34,525 nt of DNA from Candidatus Kapaibacterium sp. (GCA_026996895.1 JALWJX010000121.1:1-34525), one strand, 5' to 3'; counted from the stretch's first letter, positions 7,209 to 21,928 are shown. Numbers and translations are program-made. The notes: generated by a model not told the origin, from the sequence alone.

Positions 7209-7967
7209 TCAGTAGATCAATAACAAAATCCCCTGCTGCTTTACAGAAAGAACGTACACACCTGAGAGATTCACCGATGGCAATTGCCCTTTCCCTTGCC
7301 GAAGAGGAATTTTTGCAACCAGCCGTCCGTTAAGGTCACGAAGCTCGCCCTGTGCAAAAGGAAGTGATCGAAAACGCTGAATCTGTATCCATCGCTGCTC
7401 TCTGGGAACGCAAAGCGCTGGAGACGAAGCGAAAACTTGAGAATGCTCAACAACCCGACTGACAGAAGCTCGATACCAGATTTGGAGAGATAGTTCCCCA
7501 ACAGCGTTATTATCAATTACTGCCGAATCCTCCTTGGTAAGATTATACACATACACCTCGAACGGGTCAGCCAGGCGTGCCGAATCCACAATACTTGCAA
7601 CTGTCCACCGAATATGCAGTGGATATCCATCCCGCTGGATATGAATCTGATGTACAACGCTATCCGACACATGGGGCACAGGTCGAAAATCCTCCTGCGT
7701 CATAATAGGAACTCCCGTGATAGTATCGGTACAGGGCAACAAAAACACCGGAAACATTCCTTCTGGGGGCAGCAAAGGAATTTCTACTTCCAGCGCTGTA
7801 TCCAGACAAATAGTGGCATCAAAAGCAATTCCTGCCCGGAGGACATACTGATAACTGTTTGGACGTTCACTGGCAAATTGTAATTCTACTCCCACCTGCT
7901 GAGCAAAAATACCCCAGCCCCCTAAAAGGATATAGATTCCAGTGATATATCGACCCCATTGCCACAT
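7209..7967 (-). CDS. Secreted protein with shared surface module and short T9SS-like C-terminus
   Basis: About 252 residues from ATG 7967; the frame extends upstream to 8087, but 7967 gives a clean signal peptide (hydrophobic ITGIYILLGGWGIFA, cleavage before QQVG) and excludes the terminator hairpin. The body contains a module with LRAGIAFDATICLD, EIPLLPPEGMF and YPLHIRW, matching segments of the 995- and 2,211-residue proteins upstream. The C-terminus (GELRDLNGRLVAKI ... GVYVLSV) resembles the last strands of a type A T9SS sorting domain but lacks the early PNP motif. It follows the terminator of the large operon, so it probably has its own promoter, not identified. Function unknown; export is likely. 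Confidence 0.72.
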   Translation of the reverse strand: MWQWGRYITGIYILLGGWGIFAQQVGVELQFASERPNSYQYVLRAGIAFDATICLDTALEVEIPLLPPEGMFPVFLLPCTDTITGVPIMTQEDFRPVPHVSDSVVHQIHIQRDGYPLHIRWTVASIVDSARLADPFEVYVYNLTKEDSAVIDNNAVGELSLQIWYRASVSRVVEHSQVFASSPALCVPREQRWIQIQRFRSLPFAQGELRDLNGRLVAKIPLRQGKGQLPSVNLSGVYVLSVKQQGILLLIY

Positions 7968-8026
7968 TCTTCCATTCCGCCTTTCACTTTGCACCTCACT
8001 TTTCAAACGAGATTCCTGGTGCACAA

Positions 8027-8065
8027 ATGAAAAAAGGCAACCACCCGCATCGGATGGTTGCCTTT
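8027..8065 (-). terminator. Strong intrinsic terminator ending the surface-protein operon
   Basis: A perfect 11-bp stem (AAAGGCAACCA at 8033-8043 with TGGTTGCCTTT at 8055-8065) encloses an 11-base loop. Read on the minus strand it is followed by a run of six T and ATT, the normal form of a rho-independent terminator. It lies 36 bases past the stop of the 995-residue gene. Confidence 0.92.
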
Positions 8066-8101
8066 CTCCGCTACTCTTTGCAATCAAATCTTTGACAACC
8101 G

Positions 8102-11089
8102 CTATCGTGCAATGACTAACCGCTGGGTAAATTGCTTATCTCCCAGGCTGACCCGACACACATAGACCCCTTCGGGTAGATTCGAAACGTTCAATTTTAC
8201 GGTTTGTGTACCGCTATGCACAGCATACCGGTAGCTTGCAATCTTCTTACCTAATACAGTGATAAGTTCTACTTGCGCTGGCTGATTTTCACGGGCGGTA
8301 ATTTCCACAAACACATATTGCTGTGCCGGCGTTGGATAGAGAGCGATACCTTCGCCAGAGACAACGCCGATGCTCATCAACTGAACACTTTTCACCCGAG
8401 GATCTGTAATAACCACCGCTTCGGAACTTCCTTTGTCAATTGTTCCCAAAACCTCGCCTGTAACAGGATTTACAATCTTGTAGGACTGGGAAGGATTTTC
8501 AATGGCAATCACGACTGGATAGCGTACACCCTGGAATTGAATAACCGGACTATTAGCAGCACTTTCCACATAACTACCGCTTCCAAAGCGAACATCGAAC
8601 AATCCTGCTGGGGGAACTGGAGGTAATTCGAACCACTTGCTTACCCCACTTTCTTGAGAGAGATATAGCCGACCGACATGATGGGCTTGATCTCGAATGA
8701 CGACCACATCACTGCTGTGCAGGATGTCCTGCTTCCAGCCACGAATGACGCCCGAAGCCTTCATCGCATCCAACCGGAGGTACCCCTCTTCATCGGTCTT
8801 CACCCAATATCCCTTTCCAGGCTCCAGCACGCTGACTTCTTTATACCCTTCATCGGTCTTGTACCAGTAGACACCTGAAACCCGTGTTGGGATAGGACTC
8901 ACATCTGTCAACGGATCAAACTGGATGTTATCCACATTGACCGGAATCGACAGTCCTCCGATCGTATTCCATCCCTTACCCAACCGCACTTTATACTGGG
9001 TCTCCCGTCCGACACTGGTTACCCGGGCTCCAGCAATGATGCTATCCAGCAACGATCCATACTTCACAAAGTAGCCCCGTCCTACCTGCAGATTATCTTC
9101 CTGATAGTAGGCACCTTCAAAGAAGTAGCGGGGCTTATCCAGTGCATTGGGGAAGACTGTTTTCCAGAACGGATCTGCCGGACGAACGGGAAGTGACACC
9201 AGATTCCATCCTTTCTGGAGGAAAGCAAATCGCTCCACTCTTGGTGTCGCATACTCGATAATAAACGATGTAATACGCGCATCACGAATGGTAAAGGAAT
9301 AAATCGTCCCTCCTACGTGCGTTGCGTTGCGCATATCAACGCCAAAAATGGAGCCGTTCAAAGTATCACGGAGAAAGAGCCGGGCATTGGGCGGAAAGTC
9401 ACTGATATCCCAGCTTACAACCACTGGATAATCATTCTGTTCTGCTTTAAAGCGACACAGATAAATGATAGTCGTATCGGCGTGGGCATCTCGAATATCA
9501 CGTGACAGTGAACGTCCGGTCAAATCTCCCATACGAATATCCGTTTCCGGCGGATACCATCGTGCCTCAAAAGGTACCAATGGATCAGTTTCCGCAACTT
9601 CACCAAACAGTGGATCCACACCATCGGAAGCCTCAGCACCAGTACCAAAAATCAGCGTTTGTTGCACTCCCTGGGCACTCTCTAAGGTAATACGAATACC
9701 ACGCCCTGTTACATCCTGATCCTCAACTAAGATTTCCTCATTCGGCTCGATCGGATTCCGCCATATAATGAAAGTTACTCGCAATCGCACAGGGCTCACC
9801 AACATCGTTGGCGAATGGAATGTGATATAGCCAACATACACCCCTGCCGGTCCCGTCACTCGCGAAGGATCACAAATAATCCGCAAACGCAGGGTTGGAT
9901 CGCTCTGGGTTGGATTCCCCAGCGGATCATTAATATCCCCTAAGATCCCTTCATCGATGTAATCGATATACCCTTCCCGTGAAGGCTGCGGAATGGGGTT
10001 TTTCTGTCCAACCGTCTGGAACAACAACCACGGCTGATCGGACTGGACAAACAAATCAGTAATTCGCGACTGATCAATAATGTTCACAACATCCAGTTCT
10101 CGAGTGACTACTTGAGGATCTTGTGAAGCAGAGTCAATCGTCAATGGGTCAATCAGCTCCCACAAGGCCTTATCTGTGCCGGGAACCTCCCGAACCACAG
10201 CACTGGGACCAATATCCGGCTTAAACCCAAGCTGTGGAATACGGGTCAAACGTACATATCCCATTCCCTTCAACGTGGGTTCTGTATTGAAGGTTAAAAG
10301 ATTTTCATTCGTCAAACCGCCAAAAGGCTCTGGTTGCGGCTGATTGGGCACTGCATCTGGACCCGTCGTTGGGAATGGATACTGCCACGGATCTCGTTCA
10401 TTCCATCGAATCGTATCTGCAGCAATGATCAATGGAGTGTTGGAAGCCGTCACATCGCTAATCGTGTTCGTTCCATCATCCTGAATCATTACCTTGAATT
10501 TCACGAAAAGCAGAATCGCCCAGTCGAACTGTCCTCGCTCCCCCGGCGTTGGATTCGTGAAGTTTGTTGAAGGGAGAGGTTCCGAAGAAGTTCCGACAAT
10601 CCGAATCCGACGACCGTTTGGATCACCAGTATTTCCCGGAATACGGGTTTTGTAAAGAGGATCTGGACGATCATCCCACTGAATTTGAAAATGCTTTGCA
10701 ATAGCAAAGGTATCGCTGCCCCGGGTTCCAATCATCTGAACCCCAACAGCTTTCAGCGCTCGCTGATCATATCGAATACTAAACTGAAAACTTTTGATTG
10801 GCTCTGCCGAAGCCAAAGTGTTAGAAAGCCAGGGATTGCGCACATACACTGGCACGATCAAATAATGATCCTCTTTACCCAGAGGGGCAATGGGATACCA
10901 TATCCGCAGTCCCGGATACCGAACCTGCATATTTTGCTGGTACTCACCATAAGCTGGCTCTTGCAATACCAAACCAAGCTGAGGCAGCGATGGTGGTTCC
11001 ACCTGAGACAAAATGTTACTTACAGTAAACAACGCTACAACAAGCACTGCACCGACTTTGCGGACAAACGGAGAAAACTTTGCCATCAT
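8102..11089 (-). CDS. T9SS-exported surface protein with cohesin-like N-domain, 995 residues
   Basis: Signal peptide at the N-terminus (VGAVLVVALFTVSNILSQ). ATG 11089 is preferred over the ATG at 11116 because AAGGA sits 6 bases before it. The N-terminal ~200 residues look cohesin-like: FQFSIRYDQRALKAVGVQ and the FVKFKV strand. A module around bases 9700-9245 (LIFGTGAEASDG, PFEARWYPPE, YPVVVSWD) is shared with neighbouring secreted proteins, and a second partial copy lies at about 8670-8345 (WFELPPVPPAGLFDVRF). Between them are GWNLVSLPV-type segments typical of T9SS cargo. The C-terminal ~80 residues form a type A sorting domain (ALYPTPAQQYVFVEI ... LGKKIASY ... GVYVCRVSL ... RLVIAR). It would be exported through the T9SS and attached at the surface. 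Last gene of the operon. Confidence 0.85.
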   Translation of the reverse strand: MMAKFSPFVRKVGAVLVVALFTVSNILSQVEPPSLPQLGLVLQEPAYGEYQQNMQVRYPGLRIWYPIAPLGKEDHYLIVPVYVRNPWLSNTLASAEPIKSFQFSIRYDQRALKAVGVQMIGTRGSDTFAIAKHFQIQWDDRPDPLYKTRIPGNTGDPNGRRIRIVGTSSEPLPSTNFTNPTPGERGQFDWAILLFVKFKVMIQDDGTNTISDVTASNTPLIIAADTIRWNERDPWQYPFPTTGPDAVPNQPQPEPFGGLTNENLLTFNTEPTLKGMGYVRLTRIPQLGFKPDIGPSAVVREVPGTDKALWELIDPLTIDSASQDPQVVTRELDVVNIIDQSRITDLFVQSDQPWLLFQTVGQKNPIPQPSREGYIDYIDEGILGDINDPLGNPTQSDPTLRLRIICDPSRVTGPAGVYVGYITFHSPTMLVSPVRLRVTFIIWRNPIEPNEEILVEDQDVTGRGIRITLESAQGVQQTLIFGTGAEASDGVDPLFGEVAETDPLVPFEARWYPPETDIRMGDLTGRSLSRDIRDAHADTTIIYLCRFKAEQNDYPVVVSWDISDFPPNARLFLRDTLNGSIFGVDMRNATHVGGTIYSFTIRDARITSFIIEYATPRVERFAFLQKGWNLVSLPVRPADPFWKTVFPNALDKPRYFFEGAYYQEDNLQVGRGYFVKYGSLLDSIIAGARVTSVGRETQYKVRLGKGWNTIGGLSIPVNVDNIQFDPLTDVSPIPTRVSGVYWYKTDEGYKEVSVLEPGKGYWVKTDEEGYLRLDAMKASGVIRGWKQDILHSSDVVVIRDQAHHVGRLYLSQESGVSKWFELPPVPPAGLFDVRFGSGSYVESAANSPVIQFQGVRYPVVIAIENPSQSYKIVNPVTGEVLGTIDKGSSEAVVITDPRVKSVQLMSIGVVSGEGIALYPTPAQQYVFVEITARENQPAQVELITVLGKKIASYRYAVHSGTQTVKLNVSNLPEGVYVCRVSLGDKQFTQRLVIAR

Positions 11090-11128
11090 TCTGTTTCCTT
11101 TAACTTTTATGAACATCCCTTTCGTTCT

Positions 11129-12340
11129 TTATTGTCTGTATACCCACTTAATACGTCGCTCTTGCCCAAAGTAAAGAGCAACGGCATATAATCCACGGCT
11201 CCAGGTCATTGTCGGAATCCAGCAATACCGTCTTCCAGCCTGTACTGGAACATCCAGAATTTTTCGCCCCATACTATCGTAAACTTCAATCTTTGTCATT
11301 GGCAACCTGGTGTGAACTTCTACACCATCCGTTCCTGCTGATATTAGCTCCCATCGCGTCACTGATTCTGTTTGCACACCACTTATCTGTTGCCATTTGA
11401 CCATCACACGGTTCGTATCAAACCGGGTCACACAATGACAAATCGGCAACACCTGCAATATGCCCAATGCAAAATTCATCGTATCCACCGAAGGTGTGCT
11501 CAGCACCGCCTGTATCGAAAGCACTACCGAAGTCCAGTTGGAGTCTCCATAACATTTCCACTCATAGCGTTGCTGCTCTGCATTCCATTCCGGTTGATCG
11601 CACCCCAAGCCAGCCGCCGGAAATAATTGCACGTCCTGCACATCACCTTTGTCATCAAGTTGCCTGAAATACAAGCTAACCGTATCAACTCGATTGTTAA
11701 ATACATTCTGGATTGCAACCGTCAGTTGCAACGTATCCACTGGCATTGTCAACACCGTATTATGCTGATAAACATTCAGCCGAGCCTGTCTATCGGGCTT
11801 ATCCCGAACCATTAACACTACAGGATCAACCTTCCCGATAGTACCCGGCACATCGATAACGGTATTATTATGCAGCCGACCAAAAGTCACCCGGCGCAGC
11901 ACAACATAACTCGTATCCGGACATTGAGGTCCACGTACGCTCCCTGCAATTGCTACCACCGCTTTCTGAGCACCAGTACTTTGTAGAAAACGTTGAACAT
12001 TCCCGCCTTCTACAACGACAACCCCATCTTCGACTGTATGCATCTGAACAAAATCCATCGTTTCACTCAGCGTATTCGCTTTCAACAGGGTTGTCAGCGT
12101 CAACCTCGATGGATCGTATCCAATTTCGACCGCAAATGACAGCAAACTATCCTGCACGTGAATCGTACCAACGGTTACCACCAAAATCACTCGCTGCACC
12201 GATCCACAAATATCCACCGGCTGACTCTGGATTCCGACCACCTGAGCCGCTGTTGGGAAACTCCCACTAACCAAACTCAGGAGCGCTCCCAACCACCTCA
12301 ATTTCTTAAAGAACTCACAACAAAAAACCCTTTTAATCAC
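11129..12340 (-). CDS. Secreted cohesin-like protein with minimal T9SS-like tail, 403 residues
   Basis: Starts at GTG 12340 (AGGA just upstream) with a signal peptide: basic FFKK, hydrophobic LRWLGALLSLVSGSFPTAA, then Q. The first ~170 residues resemble a cohesin fold: DICGSVQRVILVV, FAVEIGYDPSRLTL, then LRRVTFG. The remainder is beta-rich and unassigned. The C-terminus (KIEVYDSMGRKILDV ... GLYAVALYF ... IKWVYRQ) keeps the GRK and GLY features of a type A sorting domain but lacks the PNP segment. The next gene begins 39 bases past this stop. No enzyme motif is visible. Could be a structural surface protein or a ligand-binding module; function unknown. Confidence 0.75.
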   Translation of the reverse strand: MIKRVFCCEFFKKLRWLGALLSLVSGSFPTAAQVVGIQSQPVDICGSVQRVILVVTVGTIHVQDSLLSFAVEIGYDPSRLTLTTLLKANTLSETMDFVQMHTVEDGVVVVEGGNVQRFLQSTGAQKAVVAIAGSVRGPQCPDTSYVVLRRVTFGRLHNNTVIDVPGTIGKVDPVVLMVRDKPDRQARLNVYQHNTVLTMPVDTLQLTVAIQNVFNNRVDTVSLYFRQLDDKGDVQDVQLFPAAGLGCDQPEWNAEQQRYEWKCYGDSNWTSVVLSIQAVLSTPSVDTMNFALGILQVLPICHCVTRFDTNRVMVKWQQISGVQTESVTRWELISAGTDGVEVHTRLPMTKIEVYDSMGRKILDVPVQAGRRYCWIPTMTWSRGLYAVALYFGQERRIKWVYRQ

Positions 12341-12381: not shown

Positions 12382-14403
12382 TTATCGTTTTGCTACTTGG
12401 TAAGTGCCAACAACCTGTCCGTCTTGGACAATCTGCCAGAAATAGACGCCTGTTGCCACTGGATTCCCACCTCTATCTTTACCATCCCAGCGCAACTGCT
12501 GCATTTGCCCGGCTTCCAAACGACCATCCCACAGTGTTCGAAGCTTCTGTCCCAACTCGTTGACGATCTGGACTGTATAACGCCCCGTCTCAGGAGCAAC
12601 ATATCGCATCTGAACTTCGTTCCCAAAGGGATTCGGGAAAATCTGGATCGCAGCTTGCTCCATACCAGCATTTGCAATCATTAAGGTTGTCCCTTTGCGC
12701 TGGACGTCGTTAAACCGAAGATCTGAAATCGTCACAGTGCTACTTGCAGGACGAATAATCAGATATCCCACGATTCCGGGAGCAAAATCTCCAGTTCCTG
12801 CTACCGCCACACGGTTTCCACTCCATTGCGTATACAATCTCTGATCCCGGCCAGCAACCCCAACGAATTCTTCAATGGTAGCATTGGAAACTGTGAAGGT
12901 AAATCCAACAGTAGAATGCACATATCCATTGAGCCGAACTGGAATGCTCACCATTTCATTGCCTATTGCTTCTGCTGTTCCAAATTCTATGGTTGTCGCT
13001 CGCATTACCGCCGCTGCCTTCCCATATCCCGGAATGGTATCCAGCAGCCAGGGCAGCTCCGGCACTTTCCCGGCAATGTAGTTCAAAATCAATGCAGCAT
13101 CGTATTCATTTGCCTGAAAGTACAAGTTGTTCCGAGAATCATCGGCGGGCAGATCATCATAAACCCCAGCGCTTTTGACTGGCCACTCCCGACGATAGAC
13201 AACCAAGTTTCCGTCCTGATCCAGAGAATCGCCACTATTATCCAGCTTCCGGGAAGAATACCAGAAACGCCCATTGTGGTTCACATCTGCGTGGTACGCC
13301 TGTCGAAACATCAAGCTATCCAGGGGCTGATTCTGCGCTACCGCCCGGAGAATGGTCAACACGTCATTGAGTGTCACATACCGATTCTGTGGCAATCCCG
13401 CATGCAATTGTCCGGGAATTTGAGACATATTGGCATCACCATCTCCCCATCCAGCGATACCCGGTTTCGGCGTAGCGATAAATACAATAATGTTGTTATT
13501 TGCGCGAGACGGAGGCCAGATGCTGGTCAATCGCTGGCTCTTGATCACACTATCCTGCCCATCATATCCAGGAATGTAAGCACTGGAAGTGCTGTCTTCT
13601 ATAAAAAGCCCATTCATAAAGGAGGTATTTCCTCCCTGAGTCAGCGAGACAGACTCCAATCCTACCGCAGAACCACTAATCTTTGTAATACCTGGAATAC
13701 CACCAATGATTCCATAATGGAACTCAATATTCCCCTGATTACCCGTTTTGGGTTCGCCAACAGCCGGCGACTCATAGATTTTCACCTGGAAATTGGCAAT
13801 ACTGGAAGGCTGCGGCGCCGGATTAGCTGCGTTGGGATTATTAGGATCAGTCGGATCAAAGAAATAATTCACGTTCAAGTTCTTCCACTGAACAGTCAGC
13901 ACCCGTGAACCGGGTTGTCCGGAAATGTAGTAAGAAATTTCCGACGGCATAAATCCAATGTCACTGGGCGTACGATAATAATGATCCCCCCAGAACGGAG
14001 CAATAACCCCATTAGGAGAGTTCTTGTTAAACATATTATTGGGATCGTTTGTCCCAAAAACGGCTGGCAAATCTCCTACTTGAACAAAACCATTAACATT
14101 GACCTGAATTCGGGTATATCGCTGTCCATCAAATTCAAATTCAAACGGCAATTCAATGCCGAATTCCTGTGTCACAGGATTATAATAAAATCCATCATCC
14201 GGATCCAGAATGCTCGAATTCAAAGGATCCCGAAAATCCTCAGCCGGGAGCACTACCCGATCTGTTGGTAATTCCTGATAGGGTGCATTCTCAATCGTAT
14301 TGGTAAAGTAAGAATAAATCTGTGCAAAAGTGTTTGCTACAGGCAACAAAAGAAGCCCTACAGCAAATGCTGCCACAGAAAAAATCCGTTGCTGCAACTT
14401 CAT
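12382..14403 (-). CDS. T9SS-exported protein with dockerin-like and cohesin-like segments, 673 residues
   Basis: ATG 14403 is preferred over the in-frame ATG at 14436: it has GGGAAGAG upstream and opens a clean signal peptide (IFSVAAFAVGLLLLPVANTFAQ). The N-terminal beta domain carries PFEFEFDGQRYTRIQVNVNG, common in exported proteins. In the middle are two dockerin-type half repeats: GDANMSQ ... VTLNDVLTILRAV and DVNHNGRF ... NEYDAALILNYIAG, the second split by ~50 inserted residues. Next is a cohesin-like domain (TIEFGTAEAIGNEMVSIPVRL ... GIVGYLIIRP). The C-terminus is a FlgD-Ig-like type A sorting domain (IFPNPFGNEVQMRY ... WDGKDRGGNPVATGVYFW). Calcium binding by the DVNHNG loop is inferred. 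Same operon as its neighbours. Confidence 0.85.
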   Translation of the reverse strand: MKLQQRIFSVAAFAVGLLLLPVANTFAQIYSYFTNTIENAPYQELPTDRVVLPAEDFRDPLNSSILDPDDGFYYNPVTQEFGIELPFEFEFDGQRYTRIQVNVNGFVQVGDLPAVFGTNDPNNMFNKNSPNGVIAPFWGDHYYRTPSDIGFMPSEISYYISGQPGSRVLTVQWKNLNVNYFFDPTDPNNPNAANPAPQPSSIANFQVKIYESPAVGEPKTGNQGNIEFHYGIIGGIPGITKISGSAVGLESVSLTQGGNTSFMNGLFIEDSTSSAYIPGYDGQDSVIKSQRLTSIWPPSRANNNIIVFIATPKPGIAGWGDGDANMSQIPGQLHAGLPQNRYVTLNDVLTILRAVAQNQPLDSLMFRQAYHADVNHNGRFWYSSRKLDNSGDSLDQDGNLVVYRREWPVKSAGVYDDLPADDSRNNLYFQANEYDAALILNYIAGKVPELPWLLDTIPGYGKAAAVMRATTIEFGTAEAIGNEMVSIPVRLNGYVHSTVGFTFTVSNATIEEFVGVAGRDQRLYTQWSGNRVAVAGTGDFAPGIVGYLIIRPASSTVTISDLRFNDVQRKGTTLMIANAGMEQAAIQIFPNPFGNEVQMRYVAPETGRYTVQIVNELGQKLRTLWDGRLEAGQMQQLRWDGKDRGGNPVATGVYFWQIVQDGQVVGTYQVAKR

Positions 14404-14510: not shown

Positions 14511-17500
14511 TTACCGCACGACGGTCACCGGATAGAGCAGCACCTGTCCATCCAACTCAATACGATAGAAGTACAATCCCGCTGCTACACGTTGCCCGGC
14601 CATATTTACAACATTCCACTCATATCGATAAGTGCCAGCAGCAACTTTTGCCTGCCCAAGCACCTGCACGGTTTGTCCCATCACATCCACCACTTCTACT
14701 TTTAGATGGGTTGGATGGTCCGTTGTAATAATCACCGCTGCTTGCTCTTCGATTGGATTAGGATAGGTATTAATTCGCACACCTGCTGGCTGATTACCTT
14801 CTGCAACACTAACAGCCGTTGAGGAATCCTTAACGATTTCGAATCCGGTAATCTTTGTATCGTAGACCGTGATCGTTATTTGTCCATTATCATCCTGAAT
14901 ATCAACGCCAGACGATGCCCGATAATGACCGGTGCGCATATTGATATAGAACACATTCCCCTTGGAATTCGCATCTCGCATATACCAATCAATTCCGGGG
15001 AACGGCGATGGCACCGTATTCTTATCCCAGCTAATCGTCACCGGATAGAGCGCTCCCGATTGATCACCGTATCCCGCCTGGAATCCTGCTTCCAGCGGGC
15101 GATCAGAAGCCTTCGGAACGATATTCCGCAGAATTCCTGTCCGCTCTGGAATCATCCACCGAGCATCGAAAATATTTGCCGGTGGAATGGGTGGAATTTC
15201 AAATTCACAGTAATTGGAATCCAACTTCCCAATACCACCCAGATCTGCGTCTTTTCCTGTTGTCGCGTTAATAGCCGTCCCCCACTCGAGAACCTGGTAA
15301 GCACCAGCAGCATTTTCAATGCGAATCGTGCTAACAAAATCGGTTTCTTCGGAAACGGCAATCCGATAGGTCAGGGTTGCCTGCTCACCTTCTTTATCCA
15401 CCGCTACAATTTCAATCGTTACCGTTCCATCTGGATTGCGCGGTGTATTGTTATCAACTGTTCCTGAGACCGTTACCACAACAGTATCAATTCCACTACC
15501 TGTGACGGTAGAAGGATCAACGGTAAATCCAGATGGTTGCGTAACAGTCAGCGTAATTTCCTCTACTGCATCATCGGGGAAGGTACGCTTCAGATCCAGA
15601 TCGGTCAAGGTAATTTGCTCACTGTATTGCTCCCCAACATCCACACATTCGACCAACGGATCTCGGTACAATGCAGGCGGATGATTGACCATCTGAACTT
15701 CGATGGGAATCTGCTTGACGTGCGTCAAACCATATTCATCAGTTACCAACACCGTGATCGTATCAGCATTGGCGCCCAGGCGTGGCGCATCCTCCACTCG
15801 CGGAATTCCATACAGCCGTCCGGTCTCAGGATCAATCTTCAGCCACCGTGGAGTCTTGGCACGAGACGTGATCTCATCCCAGTTTCCTGCTTCGGGATAG
15901 CACGGATCACGCAAAATGCCAGTTGTGGGCTCATACAGTAATTCAAAAGTATGGCGCTGATCAAAATTCGGATCATATACCTTAATCACTCGCGTCGTAT
16001 CGAACAACTGTGTATTATACTCTTCATCCTCTACAGCAACAGCCACCTGATCGGTTACAATCAACGGTGAGAAGTTAATCAGGATCGGCTTGGTGATCAT
16101 ATTGACCCCACCGTGACCATCGTGGACAACAACGGTAATAATCGTATCAGTGTACAACCACTGGTTATATTGGGATATGGGCTTTAACAAGGTTGATCGC
16201 GCTGTTGCCGAATCAATTCGAGCTCGCAGAATACCTTTTTCAGTAAACGCAGCAGCGTAAGGATCAGGATTACCACTTTCATCCTGCAAATACTCTGGAG
16301 CCAACCATTGCGGGCGCACTTGCGATAACCCACCAACGGCTGTATCTTCCGGATTATTCCGAACACCTACCGTTGCAAATCCATACGCAACCTTCCCGTA
16401 TCGGAAATCCCATCCCTGAGCAGCGGCTGCTGAATCTTCCGCTTCATCATCCGTATCAAAATCAACGTCAAAGCGCAGGGAATCTGTCACACTTGCAATC
16501 AGGGTATCATTAGTCTGGCAGCGAGCATCAACCGCCGTAAACACCGGGATACTATCAATAACCAGAATCCGGAACCGATACTCAATGGTATGATCCCAGG
16601 CGTAGTTAACAGTATCCTGCTGCAAGAAACGCGCATTATCACTGTCATAAACAGTAGCGTTGAGATAATCCCGGTACAGGTAGATATATTTTGCAATTTC
16701 TTCGTCGCTCAATCCCAACTTCTTCAGGCTATCTACCACTTCTGCAGATGGTGCCCAATTGCGGACCCGGACGACTACTTCTTCACCGCCCGGCACAACG
16801 AATGGATTCGTTGGCTGTCCTTTAAATTGCAGGTAGCTGATAGCACCATAGTACGACGGTACATTGTAGAAGAGCGTATCAGCATCCAGCCAATAGGACA
16901 ACCCACTACCCGGTGCCACTTCCCATTCATAGGTCAACGCTGGATAATGATCCGGGAAGAATACGGATCGTGGATCATAGAATTTATTGGTGTCCACTGC
17001 TGTCGCTGTAAGAATCGAATCCCGTCCAATACCACTTCCTGCCGGACGTGGATAGCTAACATCTTCCTTCAGCATAACCAGATTTTGCAATTCTGCAGGC
17101 TGCACTGCTTGCAGATCCACAATATTCCCCGTCCATACCGGTGGCTTCGTAGATGCAGCAATACGGAAAGTAATCCCTTTATCGATCGCAGCATTCACAC
17201 CTTCACGCCACAACACCGTACGCGAAACAATCAGGATTTCATCCCCAATATTCACTGGCAAAGCAGCATACTTCTCACCAGCGAAATAAACTACATTTTC
17301 ACCACCATTTGTAGAAGCTGGCAGATCGGGACGGTTGGAATACTGAAATCCTGTTCCACCCAACCGACCCTCACTGTGTTCATATTTTCGTCCACGCAGC
17401 ACTGCTAAGTCCTCATTTTGGGCATTGCGATAGAGGTAATCAAGCAATGTTGCTCCTGAACCAAAGTTTGCCAATCCCTCAGCTGTTCGGCGAATAAACG

Positions 17501-20500
17501 GATTATTATTCCGATCTGCCGAATCGGGAACAAACTCAACGCGAGCACGGAAAACTTCACTGGCCTTATCAACCTGCTTTAAGTTCACCCGGATAAAGTC
17601 ACCAGTGTTGTTGTTAATAACAAAGAAGACGGTTTCATGGAATGCCCGCTCATCATTGTTGTTCAGCTCTGCTGCTCCAGAGTAATCTGCCCACGCTTCT
17701 AAGAAGAGCGGATACCCAATGGGATGATCTCCTACAAATTCCGTTTGCAGTGCAGCAATATTGGGATCACTTTCGGCTACAAAAGGATCTCGAGTCCAGC
17801 GCCGAACCACCTTACCGGCATAATGCTCGCTATAATTTGGGTCGTTCGGATCAGCGCTATATGTCCGAAGATAAGGTGGAATACCGACGGCAAAGTCTTC
17901 AACCCGTGCAAGTCGCCGCTTCGAGTAATCTGCTGTTTTAATATCTGTTCCCTTGTCGAAAATGTCATACACAACTCCTTGCTGGAGGTATTTTTCGGGA
18001 ATGCTCACGGTAAAGTCATCCGAAACCGGAATCGGTGTGTAAGAGTACTTACTCAAAGACTCAAACGGTCCCTGTTGCTTCCCGCTACCGCCCTGGACAA
18101 ATGGCAATTGCGATTCATTCGGATCGCCACTAATAAAGAAGGTTTCTTGAACTGCGTTCCGATCTACAATAATGGTATGAACATCCGGTCCAGTTTCACC
18201 CCAGTAATTCCCCTGGAGCAAATTCACCCCACCATAACCGATTCCTGTTGTACCTGCCAGCACTCCCTTCGTATTCGGAGCATCCGGCAGACGAATCAAA
18301 AACCGAGCGGAATTATCATAAATAGCATTTGCCAGGACAGAGTAATCATCACTGGGATACGGTCCCACAACATCACCGTACAACACAGCTCCTGCCAGAT
18401 CACTGGATGCCTCATTTTGCCCGTTCACGTATGGACCGGTAATAACGTTCTGATCCATCCCGATCTCAGAGGTTGCAACATTCCCTGTAATCAGGCATCG
18501 ATTGAACACGAGTGCCAAGTCATAATTATCCGAGTACACAACAGCGCCGGAATATGCTTTGTTATCCTGGAAGCGGACACGATCAAAGACGAACATATCG
18601 CCACGGGAAGCCATTGGTTGATCAACGATATAGATAGCACCGCCCAATCCGGTTCCATTCTCCGGAATGTTCGTTCCCGGATGGTATCGAGAAACATCAC
18701 CTGTTTGTGGCTGCGTTGTACCACTGCCCATTTGATCCATATTGGGAATCGCCTCATTTTCCAGGAACCGGGTCAACGAGCGTACATCCGCATCAACACT
18801 GCCACCATAGGTGTAAACATCATCACCACCAGTGGTATAGGTATTGCCGCTGACGGCATCGAAATCGGTCAGGAAATATCGGTTGACGCTGATATCCGGT
18901 GCAACGATACACAGCGCACCGCCATTACCGTTGTAAGCTTTATTCCGCAAGAACTCAACGGCGCGGACCGTCTTCATTTCGGCATTAAATGCATAGATTG
19001 CCCCACCGCCGCGGATCTGCGCCAAAAGTCCCGAAGTAATATTGCCAAAATACTTCTTCAGGAATACCGTGTCCCCGACAATATTATCCTCAAAAAGCAC
19101 GCGAGTCAAATCAATAGACCGATCATCAGGATCCAGCGAGCTAAACGTTACCACGCTAATAGCACCACCTGAAAAGCCTGCTTTGTTGCCTTTGAATTCT
19201 ACCCGATAACCTGCACCGTAGTTTACAGTAGTACCAAACACACCTCCTGCACCGTAGATCCGGATGCGTTTTTTGGCATAAATAGCACCTCCATCATACG
19301 AAGCTTCGTTATTGACAAATCGAATTTTATACCCGTATCCTCGAGTGACAGCAGTCGCGTTGGACCCACCGATTGTCGGAGAAGGCAACAGATTCACTGG
19401 ATTGGTTGGAACCAACAGGAACGTATAGATAGCACCACCACGTGCTGCCGAATTTTCTTCGAAGACTGTTTCAACACCCCCCTGATCCACATCATAGCTG
19501 GAGCGTACTTGAATGCGTGGGGAATTCGCTGATGCATAAATTGCCCCTCCCTGGGAATAATCGGCGGGATTTGTATTAAATGGCGTTGATGTCGAATTGT
19601 TTGCAAATCGTCCAGCAAAAATCACTGATGTTGCATCGCCCACGTAGACCGCTCCCCCTTTAGCTCCGTGGGTCACTTTCCCGTTATTCGGTGTTACGGG
19701 CTGCAAATTAATTGCCTGATTTCCTTCGAAAATGACAAAATCTCGATCTGCTTCAAATCCTTGATTATCACCCAGAGAAATCTCCATCAAATTGCGTCCA
19801 GCAATGTAGACCGCTCCACCGAACGCTTGATTTTTATAGTCGTGATACGGATCCACTGTTGCCGCTTCATCCATATTATCCTGAATGCCGATTGGCACAC
19901 CATTTTGATCATACACTTGCACTACATCTGCCAGCAGCACTTTATTATTCCGGAAAGTCAACTGCCGCACTCGTCCAAGATAGATGGCTAAACGTCCATC
20001 ATCCACTGCCTGCCGCTGCAAATCTGTTAATGGCTCACTGGTGGGATACATCAACTGATCAATTGCTCGAATCTGTTGATTAATTGGCATCCCGGTTTCC
20101 GGATCCGTAACATTAGGATTGACAGCGTTCATCGGATCGGTGGAATAGTACCCAACGCCCAAATTATCCAGATCGACTGAAGGATATATTGCTTGCGTGC
20201 CTCCCGGTCCAAAATCATCTAACGGAGCCTGCAAAAATTGGACAGCACCCCCTCGATATCGAGCCATATTGTTTTCAAACACACAATTCACCAACCACGT
20301 ACGACTGGAAAACGTAGTCAACGCTCCTCCTGATCCATTAGTCATCGACAACAGCCGCTTATTGAAAGCTGCATACTGCGCTGCAACCCCTGGCGTTGGC
20401 GGCTGATAAATTGGCACCCGATCAACGGTGGTATCCTTACGGAAATTCTTGAAATCAACATCCCGGAAGTACGCCGCTTTGGCTCCGGGTAACACTATGA

Positions 20501-21146
20501 TATGCCCCCATTCTCGCGAAAAACTATTGACCGGACGTCCTTCAAAAGTAATCCGCCCTGCAACCACATTAACCGATGCTCCACCGGGTCGCGACCACGG
20601 TGTTACTTTCAGATTTGGATCCATATCGGCAAACTCAATGCGAGAAGCCTTGTAAATAATCGCTTTCCCTGCTGGCAAATTCTGCAATCGGGAATCGGTA
20701 CTACTCAAATTGATATTAAAAATGTCCTCCCGCTTCGAAATGTTCACCGTCGGTTCGTTGATTACCGAAGCAGAAACAACATTCGGATAGGCAAAATAAT
20801 CCAGATCCGCATATCCATCCTCGAACTGCGTATACTGTGGATCCAGCGGATCAATCACATTGGGATTGTACGTTGCAGTCACCCGACCATCGGCAATCAA
20901 TCGACCGCCAGCCCAGACAATAATCCGCCCGTTCGGCAGAAACTCCACCTTGGTTCCGGGCTCAATAAGCAACGTCCCTTCAATCTTATAGGTACCGCTA
21001 ATGCGGTACAGCGTATCCTTGAGAAAGATACGCGTTTGATTACTCGGCAAAACCCCGGAAATTTCTTTAACTGGTTGTGCCAGCAAGTGCAAAAAGCTAA
21101 ACAGTGCGACGACAACTACGGAAAAAGTACGAATCCACCGTTGCAT
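14511..21146 (-). CDS. Giant T9SS surface protein: Pmp-like beta-helix plus Ig-like domains, 2,211 residues
   Basis: ATG 21146 (GAGGGA upstream) opens a signal peptide (FSVVVVALFSFLHLLA, cleavage at Q). The first ~950 residues form a right-handed parallel beta-helix of the kind seen in chlamydial polymorphic membrane proteins: about eight GGA[I/V/L] motifs alternate with about ten FxxN motifs (for example FEENSAARGGAIY, FVNNEASYDGGAIY, FKGNKAGFSGGAI). Residues ~1100-1900 are beta-sandwich, Ig/cadherin-like, including VVHDGHGGV and NHPPALYRDP segments. Around 1935-2110 is the shared module (VLEWGTAINATTGKDADLGG, EIPPIPPANIFDARW). The last ~95 residues are a type A sorting domain (TYPNPIEEQA ... 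VMGQTV ... AAGLYFYRIEL). Likely a large adhesin or surface scaffold; no enzymatic residues stand out. The next gene upstream ends 41 bases before this start. Confidence 0.87.
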   Translation of the reverse strand: MQRWIRTFSVVVVALFSFLHLLAQPVKEISGVLPSNQTRIFLKDTLYRISGTYKIEGTLLIEPGTKVEFLPNGRIIVWAGGRLIADGRVTATYNPNVIDPLDPQYTQFEDGYADLDYFAYPNVVSASVINEPTVNISKREDIFNINLSSTDSRLQNLPAGKAIIYKASRIEFADMDPNLKVTPWSRPGGASVNVVAGRITFEGRPVNSFSREWGHIIVLPGAKAAYFRDVDFKNFRKDTTVDRVPIYQPPTPGVAAQYAAFNKRLLSMTNGSGGALTTFSSRTWLVNCVFENNMARYRGGAVQFLQAPLDDFGPGGTQAIYPSVDLDNLGVGYYSTDPMNAVNPNVTDPETGMPINQQIRAIDQLMYPTSEPLTDLQRQAVDDGRLAIYLGRVRQLTFRNNKVLLADVVQVYDQNGVPIGIQDNMDEAATVDPYHDYKNQAFGGAVYIAGRNLMEISLGDNQGFEADRDFVIFEGNQAINLQPVTPNNGKVTHGAKGGAVYVGDATSVIFAGRFANNSTSTPFNTNPADYSQGGAIYASANSPRIQVRSSYDVDQGGVETVFEENSAARGGAIYTFLLVPTNPVNLLPSPTIGGSNATAVTRGYGYKIRFVNNEASYDGGAIYAKKRIRIYGAGGVFGTTVNYGAGYRVEFKGNKAGFSGGAISVVTFSSLDPDDRSIDLTRVLFEDNIVGDTVFLKKYFGNITSGLLAQIRGGGAIYAFNAEMKTVRAVEFLRNKAYNGNGGALCIVAPDISVNRYFLTDFDAVSGNTYTTGGDDVYTYGGSVDADVRSLTRFLENEAIPNMDQMGSGTTQPQTGDVSRYHPGTNIPENGTGLGGAIYIVDQPMASRGDMFVFDRVRFQDNKAYSGAVVYSDNYDLALVFNRCLITGNVATSEIGMDQNVITGPYVNGQNEASSDLAGAVLYGDVVGPYPSDDYSVLANAIYDNSARFLIRLPDAPNTKGVLAGTTGIGYGGVNLLQGNYWGETGPDVHTIIVDRNAVQETFFISGDPNESQLPFVQGGSGKQQGPFESLSKYSYTPIPVSDDFTVSIPEKYLQQGVVYDIFDKGTDIKTADYSKRRLARVEDFAVGIPPYLRTYSADPNDPNYSEHYAGKVVRRWTRDPFVAESDPNIAALQTEFVGDHPIGYPLFLEAWADYSGAAELNNNDERAFHETVFFVINNNTGDFIRVNLKQVDKASEVFRARVEFVPDSADRNNNPFIRRTAEGLANFGSGATLLDYLYRNAQNEDLAVLRGRKYEHSEGRLGGTGFQYSNRPDLPASTNGGENVVYFAGEKYAALPVNIGDEILIVSRTVLWREGVNAAIDKGITFRIAASTKPPVWTGNIVDLQAVQPAELQNLVMLKEDVSYPRPAGSGIGRDSILTATAVDTNKFYDPRSVFFPDHYPALTYEWEVAPGSGLSYWLDADTLFYNVPSYYGAISYLQFKGQPTNPFVVPGGEEVVVRVRNWAPSAEVVDSLKKLGLSDEEIAKYIYLYRDYLNATVYDSDNARFLQQDTVNYAWDHTIEYRFRILVIDSIPVFTAVDARCQTNDTLIASVTDSLRFDVDFDTDDEAEDSAAAAQGWDFRYGKVAYGFATVGVRNNPEDTAVGGLSQVRPQWLAPEYLQDESGNPDPYAAAFTEKGILRARIDSATARSTLLKPISQYNQWLYTDTIITVVVHDGHGGVNMITKPILINFSPLIVTDQVAVAVEDEEYNTQLFDTTRVIKVYDPNFDQRHTFELLYEPTTGILRDPCYPEAGNWDEITSRAKTPRWLKIDPETGRLYGIPRVEDAPRLGANADTITVLVTDEYGLTHVKQIPIEVQMVNHPPALYRDPLVECVDVGEQYSEQITLTDLDLKRTFPDDAVEEITLTVTQPSGFTVDPSTVTGSGIDTVVVTVSGTVDNNTPRNPDGTVTIEIVAVDKEGEQATLTYRIAVSEETDFVSTIRIENAAGAYQVLEWGTAINATTGKDADLGGIGKLDSNYCEFEIPPIPPANIFDARWMIPERTGILRNIVPKASDRPLEAGFQAGYGDQSGALYPVTISWDKNTVPSPFPGIDWYMRDANSKGNVFYINMRTGHYRASSGVDIQDDNGQITITVYDTKITGFEIVKDSSTAVSVAEGNQPAGVRINTYPNPIEEQAAVIITTDHPTHLKVEVVDVMGQTVQVLGQAKVAAGTYRYEWNVVNMAGQRVAAGLYFYRIELDGQVLLYPVTVVR

Positions 21147-21187
21147 AGGTCCCTCACCTTTATAATTGTTACTCACTTTTTGATTCC

Positions 21188-21928
21188 TCATTCTTGCGAT
21201 TCAATTGTTTCTGGAACTATCGCTTTTCCCAAGCGAACTAATCCGGATTTTGCAAATCCAGCGTAATACGAAAACGGAGTTGTCAAAACAATTTCCCGAT
21301 ACAGTTGCTCTGCTTTTTCAGACTGCTTCGCCACTTCGTATAACTGAGCACTATACAAGAGATACCGCTGATATTCACTCCGTTCTTTTGCCTGCTCTGC
21401 CATTTCCTCCCATTTTTCCGCTGCTTCAGCATAGTGAAACGCAGCATCGCTGACAGTCCCTATTCCTCCTAACCCACCTAATCGCACATCAAGTGCCTCA
21501 CTCTCATACGCTGTCTCGTAATAAGAATTCGCTTCATCAAATTTCCCCTGCAGCGTCAATGCATGCCCTGCGAACAAAGCGGCAATCTGAGCACCGGGCG
21601 TTCCACTATACTGCTCCACTATTTGCTTCAGCCCAATCACTTGTTCTCCTCGAATCCGCTTACCCGGATCACCTTCCAGCGCTTTCTGGTATTCCCCCCG
21701 CTCGAAATATGGCAGAATTCTGGACAGTGCGGTCAATGCTTTTCGATTTTGCTCGTGGCGATTCTGAACATAGTAAACAATCCCGCCCACAAGCAGTAAT
21801 ACTCCAACAATCCCCCATCCTATCCAGGGAGCATATTGCTTCACTTCTTCAACAACTGGTATCCCCTGCTGTCCCTGTTGCTGCTGTTTCCGAACGCGCT
21901 GCTTTTCTAACTTTGCAACCTGCACCAT
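21188..21928 (-). CDS. Membrane-anchored TPR-like protein, 246 residues
   Basis: A short charged N-terminus (LEKQRVRKQQQQGQQG) precedes one membrane helix (about residues 34-53, WIGWGIVGVLLLVGGIVYYV). A helical-repeat domain follows: FERGEYQKALEGD, GKFDEANSYYETAYE, AEKWEEMAEQAKE, SEKAEQLYREIVLTTP. This is the layout of single-pass tetratricopeptide proteins such as the YfgM type, which act as chaperone-like partners facing the periplasm. ATG 21928 has GGGG upstream. It is the first protein gene after tRNA-Arg (45 bases) and precedes the giant secreted protein by 41 bases, so a role in handling that cargo is plausible but only inferred. Confidence 0.75.
   Translation of the reverse strand: MVQVAKLEKQRVRKQQQQGQQGIPVVEEVKQYAPWIGWGIVGVLLLVGGIVYYVQNRHEQNRKALTALSRILPYFERGEYQKALEGDPGKRIRGEQVIGLKQIVEQYSGTPGAQIAALFAGHALTLQGKFDEANSYYETAYESEALDVRLGGLGGIGTVSDAAFHYAEAAEKWEEMAEQAKERSEYQRYLLYSAQLYEVAKQSEKAEQLYREIVLTTPFSYYAGFAKSGLVRLGKAIVPETIESQE

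Follow-up and report, generated by a model that had tools for sequence, protein, structure and literature searches.

The window analysed here, a 34,525-nucleotide stretch of Candidatus Kapaibacterium sp. DNA that is the whole of contig G000:C121 in a genome of 2.7 Mb, encodes on its minus strand (14511–21146) a giant protein of 2211 residues. The protein combines a predicted β-helix of the type found in chlamydial polymorphic membrane proteins (Pmps) with a sorting domain of the type IX secretion system (T9SS). On balance, we favour the reading that it is exported by the T9SS, leads a conserved gene cassette and belongs to a core structure of the envelope or coat, rather than being a polymorphic adhesin; the export part of this statement is much more certain than the part concerning function. 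It is the context of the protein that is unusual: it is present in single copy (with one known exception), is inherited vertically, is under strong purifying selection and sits in a fixed cassette.

The Kapabacteria are a free-living bacterial lineage. The closest named relatives of the genome are metagenome genomes labelled ‘Candidatus Kapaibacterium’ (97–98% identity), and the NCBI taxonomy places Kapaibacterium in the Bacteroidota, class Eximiradiia. The giant lies within an open reading frame (ORF; P0001) of 2226 residues spanning 14511–21191. Methionine 16, at position 21146, is a better start than the first codon of the longest frame, because it is invariant across 21 orthologues and a GGAGG-type ribosome site lies 5′ of the equivalent ATG in the 15 orthologues inspected; at this place the window has GGTGAGGG. 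The earlier note had placed the gene at 14511–21146, with the same right-hand end.

Architecture of the giant protein

The repeats are concentrated in residues 288–877 (18561–20330, minus strand), where 11 GGA[ILV] and 12 FxxN motifs alternate almost perfectly over some 590 residues; the roughly eight and ten counted in the earlier note were too low. Shuffling of residues 171–1110 yields on average 0.2 GGA[ILV] and 3.2 FxxN motifs, and neither observed count was attained in 10,000 shuffles. In the closest pairs FxxN stands 8–10 residues ahead of GGA, while long loops separate the others. The stretch is recognized by Pfam Chlam_PMP (E=1.8e-23, 80.4 bits against a cut-off of 20.6) and by NCBIfam POMP_repeat (E=4.5e-10, 38.9 bits). 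Among 35 orthologues, identity is 98% at the GGA positions and 88% at the F and N of FxxN, compared with 41% elsewhere in the stretch.

An AlphaFold2 model of this half of the protein, built from the 35-orthologue alignment, shows a continuous right-handed parallel β-helix over residues 40–900 or so (18492–21074, minus strand), with a mean predicted local distance difference test (pLDDT) score of 80 and a predicted template modelling (pTM) score of 0.85; the earlier note had suggested such a model as a check. In several rungs FxxN and GG are placed by the model in the turns between short strands. Structural alignments with right-handed β-helix proteins cover model residues 24–889, the best PDB alignment spanning 274 residues with a Z-score of 16.8 at 2.9 Å. 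When the helix profile was searched against PDB sequences, nothing matched even at E=5, and Foldseek gave the model no hit at E 0.001 or better, the hits it did give being generic β-helices only; the fold is judged here from the structural alignments rather than from Foldseek. The structures matched are generic β-helices as well, namely tailspikes and alginate lyases and epimerases. These matches would raise the prospect that the giant is an enzyme acting on polysaccharides, or a carbohydrate binder, built on a β-helix in the manner of PL6 lyases, alginate epimerases and tailspikes, in which a substrate groove could explain the strong conservation. We regard this as improbable: carbohydrate-enzyme families are absent from the Pfam and NCBIfam matches of the giant, Foldseek offers no match at the threshold above, and conservation peaks at the structural motifs. 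In the models, the tailspike, lyase and epimerase matches are an indication of fold, not of function.

The C-terminal half (residues 1045–2226) was modelled with a pLDDT of 78.8 and a pTM of 0.44. Residues 1347–1949, approximately (15345–17153, minus strand), appear as a tandem of cadherin/Ig-like domains, matching cadherin EC tandems in the model with a Z-score of about 9 and Pfam He_PIG at 7.3e-8. They are followed by a pre-tail module (about residues 1951–2124; 14820–15341, minus strand) delineated by hhalign, with the pattern ATxGxD..E.PPxPP..FDaRW..YPVxIxW. The protein ends in a T9SS type A C-terminal sorting domain (CTD; residues 2135–2226; 14514–14789, minus strand), which scores 31.7 bits against TIGR04183 (cut-off 23) and 23.3 bits against PF18962, under its cut-off of 27. 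As modelled, the domain superposes on the T9SS CTD of PorU with a Z-score of 12.3 and 2.3 Å over 91 residues. The Ig-like domains and T9SS tail described in the earlier note are thus borne out by He_PIG, TIGR04183 and the PorU fold match.

At the other end, residues 16–38 (21078–21146, minus strand) form a predicted signal peptide, a hydrophobic helix in the model, with Ala-Gln at the likely cleavage site; Q39 is invariant and A38 nearly so in the 21 orthologues. To judge by the sequence, this hydrophobic helix and the conserved Ala-Gln are consistent with the Sec signal peptide of a T9SS type A cargo. The two further hallmarks of such cargos are present as well: the protein ends in a type A CTD, and the genome holds the T9SS core, encoding SprA (SprA_N, 1.0e-38) and PorU (776 bits against a cut-off of 420). 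Export of the giant by the T9SS is therefore well supported as a prediction from sequence and models.

The N-termini also show a wider pattern. Most proteins of the cassette carry Ala, Gly, Ser or Cys followed by Gln soon after the signal peptide stretch (61 of 71 giants, for example), as in the Q-rule of Bacteroidetes (PMC5837995). Here such N-termini occur in a lineage outside the classical Bacteroidetes.

The gene cassette and its inheritance

The giant is the first of five T9SS cargos in a fixed cassette, which follows an ancestral TPR gene. The gene order, TPR–giant–684–403–1004–292 (numbers are protein lengths in residues), was found without a single rearrangement in 81 loci from about a dozen families, and median intergenic gaps are 9 to 82 bases. 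All six genes are present in 58 of the 81 loci. The other 23 comprise loci at contig ends, three in which no single open frame covers the giant (L110, L117 and L124, each with runs of N), one with an extra, unrelated TPR ORF (L119), and those of family f18 (L055, L056), whose protein in the 403 position has diverged too far to be scored. All five products encoded after the TPR gene end in T9SS-type tails, as assessed from the window protein, from its profile or from an orthologue. The TPR gene occurs in 141 of 149 class genomes, including genomes without the cassette, where other genes follow it (five neighbourhoods). Since the TPR gene is class-wide and the cassette is restricted, the cassette is a lineage-specific unit placed behind an old gene. 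A literature search of open-licence papers found none that describes it.

These genomes encode many T9SS cargos, and the pre-tail and tail parts of the 1004-residue protein match other T9SS proteins throughout the class, as would suit a mere run of adjoining cargo genes with no joint function. That explanation appears highly improbable given the unbroken order, the short gaps and the fact that the members are present and absent together: a full-length 1004-residue protein is encoded in 72 of the 73 genomes positive for the helix and in none of the other class genomes (294 in total), the lone helix-positive genome lacking it (G335) being 67% complete.

The 73 helix-positive genomes comprise all sampled members of the order except the six of family f7, together with families f16 and f18; no orthologue was found outside the class. 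Among 41 genomes, that of the window and 40 relatives, f7 is the only family of the order without the long orthologue. Family f7 (G008, G016, G023, G030, G036 and G470) is the sole family of the order without the cassette; SprA and PorU were found in both of its genomes examined for them, and G008 still has the TPR gene. In the giant tree, each of the eight families with at least two rows forms one clade with 100% local support; the tree follows the host families, and inheritance is thus vertical. A search of a plasmid collection with the helix gave no match. It is scarcely credible that the helix was taken from Chlamydiota and re-tailed for the T9SS. Only the motif pairs are shared, and a tree built from repeats this short would carry little information on shared ancestry. 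Such pairs are known from bacteria, archaea and eukaryotes alike, on rungs that differ (PMC10715098), and both the tree and the confinement of the orthologues to this class speak against such an acquisition.

The giant is encoded by one full-length copy per genome, except in KatS3mg039 (G040), which has two. Ratios of non-synonymous to synonymous substitution (dN/dS), computed with our own Nei–Gojobori script from three congeneric genomes, are 0.03 for the giant, 0.02–0.04 for its motif stretch and 0.03–0.05 for the 1004-residue protein; for the 403- and 292-residue proteins they are 0.27–0.29 and 0.34–0.47. The giant is thus under very strong purifying selection, the opposite of what characterizes a polymorphic adhesin. 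A role like that of chlamydial Pmps, in which exposed loops would bind cells or surfaces, could be argued from the motif pairs, which are shared and lie at turns of the same kind in the rungs, and from the tandem cadherin/Ig-like domains, which are common among adhesins. It is in our view rather unlikely, as the protein is essentially single-copy, keeps 35–57% identity over its full length across families, has a dN/dS of about 0.03 with the loop-bearing helix included, and has neither a Pmp middle region nor an autotransporter barrel. The adhesin analogy drawn in the earlier note is weakened by the same copy number and selection.

The neighbours of the giant all lie on the minus strand. The TPR protein (about 246 residues; 21188–21928), just upstream, scores 26.5 bits against TPR_21 (cut-off 25.5) and by eye has one N-terminal membrane helix. 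The second cargo (673–684 residues; 12382–14403) is a FlgD_ig/Por_Secre_tail protein with a sequence match to PorU at its tail; FlgD_ig was found in 16 of 17 orthologues, Por_Secre_tail in 15 of 17 and a nidogen-like N-terminus (NIDO) in 6 of 17. A cohesin/dockerin reading of this protein, made by eye, found no Pfam support in the 17 members. The third, fast-evolving cargo (403 residues; 11129–12340) has a profile matching T9SS CTDs, and its orthologue in L118 passes TIGR04183; the L055 protein in this slot contains a Cohesin domain (2.3e-12). The fourth (1004 residues; 8102–11116) matches TIGR04183 at 1.6e-11 and is the protein that tracks the giant as described above; a Cohesin match in one member (E=0.039) is not claimed. 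The fifth (262–292 residues; 7209–8087) consists of the pre-tail module and tail only, with a Por_Secre_tail in its L118 orthologue. The module before the tail is common to the giant and to the 1004- and 292-residue proteins (profile–profile hhalign 99.3%, 98.7% and 96.6%; giant C-terminus against the 292-residue protein, 98.7% probability).

Further features of the loci were observed. The dN/dS of the 403- and 292-residue genes at 11129–12340 and 7209–8087 is roughly ten times that of the adjoining giant. In 43 of 73 loci the TPR gene is preceded by a conserved gene of about 722 residues, by eye resembling a 2-oxoacid dehydrogenase E1 (fused alpha/beta); amidotransferase-like and aminotransferase-like genes are frequent there too. 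KatS3mg039 carries two six-gene cassettes (L069, L083) in opposite orientation on one contig, with one 684-type gene split into two ORFs. The giants of family f3 (L047:7898-15979 and L050:7696-16002), about 2700 residues long, have a PSII_BNR/Ycf48-type β-propeller (Pfam, 7e-32 and 7e-26) as an insertion close to where the helix region ends, and helix-profile matches in f3 genomes break at the insertion point. Two records titled Desulfobulbaceae (L118) and Armatimonadetes (L114) hold the full cassette in standard order, so their organism names are probably wrong.

Proposed role at the cell surface

Following what is established for the T9SS, the giant would fold in the periplasm, be recognized through its CTD and pass, already folded, through the wide SprA pore; PorU would then cut off the CTD, and the protein would stay on the cell surface. 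Folding of the helix would accordingly not drive export as has been proposed for autotransporters. The helix may then provide an unvarying structural framework for assembly with the other cassette proteins exported alongside it. As the giant and the 1004-residue protein are frozen and the 403- and 292-residue proteins vary, the set can be read as a rigid scaffold with variable partners, the two smaller proteins being the possible variable parts on it. The joining of all five products in a single surface structure is inferred only.

Several points weigh against the reading of the giant as a T9SS-exported core component of the envelope. Its secretion, surface location and partners are predictions from sequence and models, and the domain arrangement of the C-terminal half is modelled at a low pTM (0.44). 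AlphaFold2 over-predicts β-solenoids for perfect artificial repeats, according to PMC11795689; unlike such repeats, the helix of the giant is irregular and has many long loops. The dN/dS ratios are drawn from three congeners, and a Cohesin domain is clear only in the one diverged slot protein of L055. Finally, the cassette is not essential to every member of the order, given that f7 has the T9SS and lacks the cassette.

It is conceivable, as a tentative extension, that the cassette builds an undescribed surface structure, such as a coat, sheath or scaffold, which would come close to defining the Kapabacteria; the invariant Pmp-type helix would be its main strut, bearing cohesin-like proteins and small variable ones. 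A fixed five-cargo cassette in a poorly known lineage is a concrete candidate for such a lineage-wide structure. More generally, the FxxN/GGA helix is here uncoupled from both the autotransporter route and the lifestyle of polymorphic adhesins, and a helix built from these motifs can be a surface component that is frozen and passed on vertically. Since it is frozen and vertical here, the motifs imply stability of the rungs, not adhesion or vectorial secretion.

Comparison with chlamydial Pmps and T9SS cargos

Debrine et al. 2023 (PMC10715098) describe FxxN and GG in the turns between strands of chlamydial Pmps and report FxxN/GGA motif pairs from more than 100 species other than chlamydiae, among them an archaeon and Trichomonas; the fold was therefore already known without the autotransporter route. 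The archaeal, Phycisphaerae and Trichomonas examples show the same local motif role with differing rung shapes (PMC10715098). The Pfam repeat itself was found in 16 of 198 genomes of the phylum. Four other Bacteroidota proteins (L166, L170, L171 and L172) join Chlam_PMP/POMP repeats to a T9SS tail, so the combination is a recurring one and not a unique event; L166 lies under the Pfam repeat cut-off and above the NCBIfam one, and L172 has the Pfam repeat only. Compared with the giant, these four have other architectures (FG-GAP, laminin G, choice-of-anchor Q) and fewer motifs. Among them, L170 (G012:C1:2571500-2581500) is an unrelated protein of 1917 residues from a genome that also carries the cassette, and combines Pmp-type repeats with choice-of-anchor Q and a T9SS tail; compared with the giant, it shows no convincing similarity outside the repeats. 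The earlier note had described Pmp-type repeats with Ig-like domains and a T9SS tail in place of the barrel, and a passenger fold coupled to a different export route. The domain layout and the pairing of a Pmp-type helix with a T9SS tail stand; the motifs are not a chlamydial signature, and the coupling is not singular. The link to Chlamydia holds as a resemblance of fold only.

Like the chlamydial Pmps (PF02415 repeat), the giant has FxxN and GGA(I,V,L) at successive turns of the helix rungs, with loops of varying length. It differs from them in that its Pfam matches to E=1 include no Pmp middle region and no autotransporter barrel (PF03797), in the added T9SS tail and Ig/cadherin tandem, and in being single-copy and not polymorphic, whereas chlamydial Pmps form variable multi-copy families. 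The non-chlamydial Pmp-like helices, from a Methanobrevibacter Ig-like repeat protein, Phycisphaerae and Trichomonas (PMC10715098), share the motif-built helix, and the Methanobrevibacter protein is named for Ig-like repeats; unlike the giant, they are not reported as T9SS cargos or in a conserved cassette. With T9SS type A cargos (TIGR04183/PF18962; the CTDs of P. gingivalis PorU and PorZ) the giant shares the CTD fold and sequence, and SprA and PorU are in its genome; it differs from them in its length of 2211 residues, its Pmp-type helix and its place in a fixed, operon-like cassette of five cargos.

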